34,724 bases of DNA from Planctomycetia bacterium. Lineage in GTDB: Bacteria; Planctomycetota; Planctomycetia; Pirellulales; JALHLM01. The DNA lies in contig JAWXBP010000447.1 in assembly GCA_034440135.1 (NCBI GenBank), positions 1 to 34,724 of the forward strand, in the 5' to 3' direction. Every line of letters begins with the position of its first letter. Within the stretch, counting starts at the first letter, position 1. Made by a program: the position numbers and the translations under genes. Positions 32,824 to 33,761 of the stretch are shown here, one piece after another. The notes under the pieces are model-generated. The model was not told where the DNA came from, made no database searches, and saw nothing but the letters and a program-made list of their open reading frames with translations.

Positions 32824-32856
32824 AAAAAAAACCCCCGGGCTTTGAGGCCCAGGGGT
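32824..32856 (-). terminator. Leu attenuator: intrinsic terminator
   Basis: On the minus strand CCCCTGGGC and GCCCGGGGG form nine consecutive pairs (one G-U) around a six-base loop. Eight T follow directly (A-run at 32824-32831 on the plus strand). It has the form of a strong intrinsic terminator. It stands about 230 bases before the leuA ATG and 36 bases after the leader-peptide stop. Confidence 0.85.
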
Positions 32857-32898
32857 CGTTGGCAATCGCTTTTTCTAGCAGCGTGCGAACCCTAAGCC
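32846..32898 (-). promoter_or_regulatory. Leu attenuator: antiterminator pairing segments
   Basis: GGCTTAGGG (minus strand, 32890-32898) overlaps the end and stop codon of the leader ORF. It can form nine consecutive pairs, two of them G-U, with CCCTGGGCC (32846-32854), which is the 5' arm of the terminator. The two structures exclude each other. A further small hairpin, GCGCT/AGCGC (32901-32915), lies in the leader coding sequence just before and could be the pause structure. Confidence 0.75.
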
Positions 32899-32954
32899 TT
32901 GCGCTCCGTAAGCGCCAAAAGCAACAAGGGCAGCAGGTTCAGCACGCGGTTCAT
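32892..32954 (-). CDS. leuL: Leucine-rich leader peptide of the leuA attenuator
   Basis: A 20-codon frame reads MNRVLNLLPLLLLALTERKA and ends in TAG. Eight of the 20 residues are Leu, six of them in residues 7-13, coded by CTG, TTG and CTT. GAGA lies eight bases before the ATG. It is too short for ordinary gene finders. Like leuL of enteric bacteria, it should measure leucyl-tRNA: stalling at the Leu codons leaves the segment at 32890-32898 free to pair with the terminator arm, while a ribosome at the stop codon covers it. The peptide itself need not have a function. The symbol is given by analogy in position and content, not by sequence homology. Confidence 0.85.
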   Translation of the reverse strand: MNRVLNLLPLLLLALTERKA

Positions 32955-32989
32955 GTCAAGATTCTCGGCAAAAACAGTCCACTTTCAAG

Positions 32990-33018
32990 AGTCTAGCTGG
33001 CAAAAAAGGTTCGGTCAA
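32990..33018 (-). promoter_or_regulatory. Sigma70-type promoter of the leu leader and leuA
   Basis: TTGACC (33013-33018) and TAGACT (32990-32995) on the minus strand are separated by exactly 17 bases, matching the consensus at five and four of six positions. Transcription would begin near 32983, about 30 bases before the leader ATG, a suitable start for an attenuator RNA. Confidence 0.65.
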
Positions 33019-33146: not shown

Positions 33147-33761
33147 TTGAGTGAATCGCCGACAATGGAGTTGAACGCCAAGGGCGCCATGCGCCGCGCG
33201 GCGTATGACGCCCGGAATGCTCAGCAGAATAAGGATGAGCTCAGCAATGCCGCGGTGGAAGCGCTCCTGCGGCTGCCGGAGTATCAGGCTTCGCGCACCG
33301 TGCTGTGGTATCTCGATTGCCGCTCGGAATTGCGCACGCGGCAGGTGCTGCCCGCTGTCTTGGCCGGCGATCAACGGATCGTCGTGCCGTACTGCACGAT
33401 GGACAACGCCGGCGCCAACAAGCTCGGCCTATGGTGGTTGCAATCGCTGGACGAGCTGGTTGTCGGCAAGTGGAAGATTCTTGAGCCGCCGTCCGACCGC
33501 TGGGGCGAGCCGGGCAAGGAAATCGAGCCGCAGGAACTCGACCTCGTGATCGTTCCCGGCGTGGCATTCAGCCGGCAGGGAGGCCGCATGGGCAACGGCC
33601 AGGGCTACTACGATCGCCTGCTGGATCGCGTTCGACAGGATTGTGCTCTGATCGGGCTGGGCTATGAAAGCCAATTGTTCGATGATTTGATCGTCAGCGC
33701 CCATGACGTCTTTATGAACAAGGTCGTCACGGAACGGGCGGTTTACGAAGGCCGACGTTAA
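33147..33761 (+). CDS. 5-formyltetrahydrofolate cyclo-ligase
   Basis: The 204-residue protein converts 5-formyl-THF to 5,10-methenyl-THF with ATP. Family marks are the basic N-terminal helix (KGAMRRAAYDARNAQ), TVLWYLDCRSELRT, IVVPYC, DLVIVPGVAFSRQGGRMGNGQGYYDRLLD (residues about 131-160, with the phosphate-binding GRMGNGQGYYDR), and the late IGLGYESQL. The length is usual. The start is TTG 33147, supported by GGGGGAG six bases upstream; an ATG at 33165 is less well placed. fhcD begins 43 bases later, so the two are probably co-transcribed, placing a folate enzyme beside a tetrahydromethanopterin enzyme. Confidence 0.9.
   Translation: MSESPTMELNAKGAMRRAAYDARNAQQNKDELSNAAVEALLRLPEYQASRTVLWYLDCRSELRTRQVLPAVLAGDQRIVVPYCTMDNAGANKLGLWWLQSLDELVVGKWKILEPPSDRWGEPGKEIEPQELDLVIVPGVAFSRQGGRMGNGQGYYDRLLDRVRQDCALIGLGYESQLFDDLIVSAHDVFMNKVVTERAVYEGRR

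Follow-up and report, generated by a model that had tools for sequence, protein, structure and literature searches.

A predicted leucine-responsive transcription attenuator precedes leuA in Planctomycetota

The leuA gene carried by the 34,724-nt stretch of planctomycete DNA analysed here (the window) is very probably controlled by ribosome-mediated transcription attenuation in response to charged tRNA-Leu. The parts of the attenuator, which we call element A, follow each other on the minus strand in the order promoter, Leu leader ORF, terminator and leuA (Table 1). An attenuator had been proposed in an earlier note made from the sequence alone. The promoter that it described, with a 17-base spacing, is present base for base (TTGACC-17-TAGACT), and the 20-codon ORF with eight Leu codons that it placed before leuA was verified; these codons (5, 7, 8, 10-13 and 15) are of three Leu codon types. 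No clear Shine-Dalgarno sequence was found before the leader. The naming of the downstream gene as leuA, likewise taken from the note, is backed by two curated models, and about 300 nt separate the leader stop codon from the leuA start in the window genome. The neighbouring gene on the upstream side (33147-33761, plus strand) is divergent from leuA; the terminator can therefore not serve this gene and was assigned to the leuA leader.

Table 1. Positions of the features of the leuA leader region and of related leaders in the window genome
Feature	Position	Strand	Details
-35 box TTGACC	33018-33013	(-)	
-10 box TAGACT	32995-32990	(-)	spacer to -35 box, 17 nt
Leu leader peptide ORF MNRVLNLLPLLLLALTERKA	32954-32892	(-)	ATG at 32954; stop TAG at 32894-32892
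Run of four Leu codons, TTG TTG CTT TTG (codons 10-13)	32916-32927	(-)	predicted stalling site
Antiterminator 5′ segment, AGGCTTAGGG+TTCG	32899-32886	(-)	over and just 3′ of the leader stop codon
Antiterminator 3′ partner, CGACCCCTGGGCCT	32858-32845	(-)	overlaps the terminator 5′ arm
Intrinsic terminator hairpin	32857-32830	(-)	11 pairs, 6-nt loop; fold and covariation
U8 tract of terminator	32831-32824	(-)	
Element B ORF MPLPKALLPSRSWLLLPAPARGRQSARVYHSLHNNQIESRISVP	32723-32589	(-)	stop overlaps leuA start (ATGA)
Element B conserved core	32693-32667	(-)	codons for R-S-W-L-L-L-P-A-P
Element B hairpin (TTGCCGG...GGTCGGCAA)	32678-32652	(-)	
leuA, 2-isopropylmalate synthase	32592-31042	(-)	TIGR00973, 744 bits; NF002086, 784 bits (curated models)
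Ile-rich leader (VIRIAIRIT) and terminator before citramalate synthase	G000:C293, about 37105-36910	(-)	L122
Leader MNAARGYRFWFHFTASRAGLEPVCS and terminator before DAHP synthase	G000:C223, about 7970-7828	(-)	L113, L121

The terminator and its T8 tract proved to be as the earlier note had described them, except that the stem has 11 pairs when folded, not nine (-22.6 kcal/mol, z -3.7; 0/200 shuffles as good). The segment over the stop codon, given as nine bases, does pair with the 5′ arm of the terminator, but over a greater length: AGGCUUAGGG (32899-32890) pairs with CCCUGGGCCU over 10 bp, and UCG/CGA gives three further pairs. The competing fold formed by AGGCUUAGGG and UCG with CGACCCCUGGGCCU was computed at -26.4 kcal/mol, in agreement with the proposal of two exclusive folds. 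Taken in the window alone, the antiterminator fold has a z of only -1.7, which is not significant against shuffles; proof of this pairing thus has to be comparative.

From this anatomy, we infer how stalling, termination and a response to leucine would be connected. Transcription would start near 32984. When leucine is plentiful, the leader would be translated to its stop codon, placing the ribosome over 32899-32886; with this segment covered, the terminator (32857-32824) would form and transcription would end. When leucine is short, the ribosome would stall at Leu codons 10-15, with its front edge at or before the start of 32899-32886. This segment would then be free to pair with the terminator 5′ arm (10 + 3 pairs), no terminator would form and leuA would be transcribed. 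The front edge of a ribosome lies 13 nt ahead of the first base of the A-site codon. On this geometry, a ribosome with codons 10-13 of the window leader in its A site would leave the whole antiterminator segment accessible, and a ribosome that has reached the stop codon would cover it, as the earlier note had supposed.

The comparison of leuA upstream regions from relatives, the test set in advance for this proposal, showed the Leu leader, promoter, terminator and exclusive pairing to be conserved across Pirellulales, with the Leu leader and terminator also kept in some other planctomycete orders. We searched for LeuA in 58 relatives and in public genome contigs, from which 30 and 80 loci were fetched, and called the element by a fixed procedure (a terminator plus an ORF with at least five Leu in nine codons). 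This combination was found upstream of leuA at 47/71 planctomycete loci and in none of 908 control stretches (0/355 dinucleotide shuffles, 0/71 antisense, 0/482 other chunks); 24/71 loci had no detected element at the main threshold. A covariance model of element A, built from 33 loci and applied at a cut-off of E <= 1e-8, matches 80/118 genomes of the order Pirellulales and misses 38/118, and its top matches adjoin leuA. It also matches genomes of other planctomycete orders, with Leu leaders before leuA there (e.g. MQIHNLLSLSLLLNLLTQARS). Five weaker matches in the window genome (C92, C233, C352, C235 and C214) were rejected as ordinary terminators that lack a Leu leader; one stands behind a tRNA-like sequence.

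In the sister genome, the sole genome of the same genus (97% identical LeuA), element A is kept from its -35 box through its U-run, with the leader MNRVLDLLPLLLLALSERKA, while the sequence upstream of the -35 box is unrelated. A promoter of the form TTGAC-N16to18-TANNNT stands upstream of the leader at 29/42 loci, nearly always with a spacer of 17, compared to 0.24% in shuffles. All six Leu codons occur among the homologous leaders, which indicates that it is leucine, and not a DNA repeat, that is under selection; the conserved feature is the content of Leu codons at a fixed spacing, rather than the sequence of the peptide.

Leu-rich ORFs were also seen 70-100 nt before leuA in Gemmataceae, Isosphaera and related genomes (L072, L074 and L109), without an obvious U-run terminator, and possibly reflect a different mode of control. 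In a Verrucomicrobia genome (UBA6053, L106), a leader MIRSGLLRRLLLLLLLEG and a terminator-like hairpin precede leuA, which suggests a wider spread in the PVC group.

Coevolution was observed in both helices. In the terminator, 7/12 pairs change on both sides, giving 29 double-change (compensating) cells compared to 8.5 in shuffles. The antiterminator core, GGG/CCC, is invariant and column-wise covariation is uninformative there; we therefore swapped pairing partners between species instead, with each cluster of similar sequences represented by a single locus, a choice that reduces kinship without fully removing it. The duplex between stop region and terminator arm had a native mean of -18.4 kcal/mol vs. 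-15.6 +/- 0.4 for swapped partners (0/5000 swaps as good), and the same held within Pirellulales alone (-19.8 vs. -17.3, respectively; 0/5000). L061 and L062 are among the few loci with a displaced leader stop codon and weak pairing. Both the terminator and the antiterminator helix are under selection.

Conservation extends to the distance between the last Leu codon of the run and the antiterminator GGG, which in most loci amounts to 17 nt (mean 17.0, sd 3.0) and suits the mechanics of a stalling ribosome. The GGG normally begins at the final base of the leader stop codon. Four loci (L007, L012, L031 and L032) have their stop codon 5-7 nt earlier, and the distance from Leu codon to GGG is still 16-17 nt.

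A second Leu-codon ORF, element B, which was absent from the earlier note, lies between the terminator and leuA (Table 1). Its core has the form R-[A/S]-x-L-x-L-x-x-P, and R, both L and P are invariant in 23 distinct cores, chosen, it should be noted, by peptide pattern, a choice that favours the motif. The stronger evidence is provided by synonymous codon changes and by members found later with the RNA model: at the invariant sites, R is encoded by AGG or CGT (AGA and CGG in further members) and Leu by TTG, CTG, CTA or CTT. The core is followed by the element B hairpin, the arms of which coevolve (0/5000 swaps as good), although the fold is not unusual in the window alone (z -0.4). The model matches 30/118 genomes of the order, nearly always beside leuA, the exception being weak matches in G076. 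On the basis of these comparisons, element B is a genuine coding and structural element.

Element B has no U-run. Its Leu codons pair well with the leuA start in some loci, including the window, with p<0.05 against shuffles in 4/25. A base stem of the LEU type (see below) was not consistent across 25 loci; when 120 nt around the element were folded, the local hairpin was the sole common feature. We propose, tentatively and at somewhat less than even chances, that leuA of many Pirellulales is under two Leu-codon leaders in series on one mRNA, the attenuator and then element B. In such a tandem, element B would act in another way (through translation, Rho or arrest by the nascent peptide), and the control of one gene by two leaders for the same amino acid would, if true, be a new arrangement. 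The spacer between terminator and element B (32823-32738), which differs in the sister genome, contains a sequence resembling an inverted repeat, TTCAGTTTTCAGT ... ACTGAAAACTGAA, copies of which are scattered through the window genome (12 sites including the window, with <=1 mismatch).

How far could leuA be governed in some other way? The promoter and terminator of element A would by themselves yield an RNA of roughly 160 nt, and the long distance between leader stop codon and leuA in the window would also suit an independent gene for a small RNA or small protein, with leuA left unregulated by the element and served by a separate promoter further downstream. We consider this very unlikely: a promoter-like site was sought between the terminator and leuA and none was found, the element adjoins leuA in dozens of genomes even where the upstream sequence is unrelated, and at L010 and L015 leuA starts just past the terminator. 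Moreover, conservation lies in the Leu codons and their fixed spacing, and not in the peptide sequence.

Nor is it plausible that leuA is set mainly by element B, through translation or Rho-dependent termination, with element A minor or constitutive, a reading that we rate as highly improbable. Element B is specific to leuA, and both its peptide (R, L, L and P do not vary although their codons do) and its hairpin are conserved; however, it is absent from most of the genomes that have element A (30/118 vs. 80/118), it lacks a U-run, and a search for pairing with the leuA start region gave no consistent result. A chance Leu-rich ORF beside an ordinary terminator might be invoked in GC-rich genomes, which hold many chance ORFs, and there are ordinary terminators elsewhere in the window genome. 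However, the combination was absent from the 908 control stretches, the pairing coevolves and the spacing is fixed; the probability left to this explanation is negligible, and conservation already refutes it. The attenuator remains our preferred reading.

The recurrence of the attenuator architecture at other genes, also absent from the earlier note, came to light when secondary matches of the covariance model pointed to the genes for citramalate synthase and DAHP synthase. The leaders before citramalate synthase are Ile-rich (e.g. MTRRVIIIPIPHARRS and MPLGIAIIVIIVAGIVPCGRP); that of the window genome reads MAVVG...VIRIAIRITGMTPRP, and similar Ile leaders are found in relatives (L154, L158 and L165). 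The leaders before DAHP synthase are aromatic (Phe/Tyr/Trp, e.g. MQLLRDWFWFGYYFTPLGRGAGSAV and MATAFTYFWFTYFSPGSGAGGSL) and occur in eight relatives; that of the window genome has an antiterminator that is close to perfect, CTCGCGCGGGTCTGG / CCAGACCCCGCGAG. In the window genome, the ilvB, trpE and hisG homologues were also inspected, and none proved to be preceded by a leader with a terminator. The products of leuA and of the citramalate synthase and DAHP synthase genes all catalyze committed steps, and their leaders form a predicted regulon. On C223 and C293 (L121 and L122), long palindromic spacers of the CCACGGAGACACGGAGG and GAATGACGAATG type lie between attenuator and gene.

Conserved, coevolving examples of leader peptides are thus now at hand in Planctomycetota at leuA, citramalate synthase and DAHP synthase. 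Attenuators of this kind would give a direct readout of amino-acid starvation in a phylum whose regulation is little known, and the covariance model is usable for annotation. They would also imply that transcription and translation are coupled in planctomycetes, a point of interest because these bacteria were long regarded as unusually compartmentalised.

The best known counterparts are leuL-leuABCD of E. coli and Salmonella and the other leader-peptide attenuators of Proteobacteria, the Leu leader being Rfam family RF00512. Element A shares with leuL the Leu-codon leader peptide, the exclusive antiterminator and terminator helices, the U-run and a leucine pathway gene. In contrast to leuL, the antiterminator strand of the planctomycete element lies over the leader stop codon, so that a separate 1:2 protector hairpin seems unneeded; the leader peptide is unrelated, the phylum is different and there is no Rfam match. 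Neither element A nor element B is matched by an Rfam family: none of the Rfam 15 covariance models reached the gathering score in the window, and no leader family was matched at E<=1 in 11 loci.

The LEU element of Actinobacteria likewise places a uORF with Leu codons before leuA, but it is described as a pseudoknot whose base stem is formed by the Leu codons and the Shine-Dalgarno box of leuA (PMC1262725); element A has a terminator instead, and it is element B that resembles the LEU element more. The leuS attenuators of Streptomyces are described as classical, with the same parts as element A (leader ORF, antiterminator and terminator), in a different phylum and before the gene for leucyl-tRNA synthetase (PMC1262725). 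Outside Proteobacteria, a leucine-rich attenuator peptide is reported to control branched-chain amino acid synthesis in Staphylococcus aureus (PMC5794164), there in Firmicutes and in another regulatory setting (with CodY). For the aromatic leaders, the closest likeness is AroR of Corynebacterium glutamicum, a leader before aroF (Neshat 2014, cited in PMC11802643); AroR has Phe-Tyr-Phe, whereas the planctomycete leaders before DAHP synthase mix Phe, Tyr and often Trp.

The earlier note knew of no planctomycete case, and we likewise found no report of a leader-peptide attenuator in Planctomycetota in the open-access literature, though an earlier prediction (e.g. in Lopatovskaya 2010) is possible. 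A genome-wide survey of attenuation in 2010 described regular leader peptides as known in Proteobacteria and Actinobacteria only, to which it then added Firmicutes (PMC2965389). Judged by its sequence features, the leuA element would belong to this known class of mechanism, the leader-peptide attenuator, and add to it the phylum Planctomycetota.
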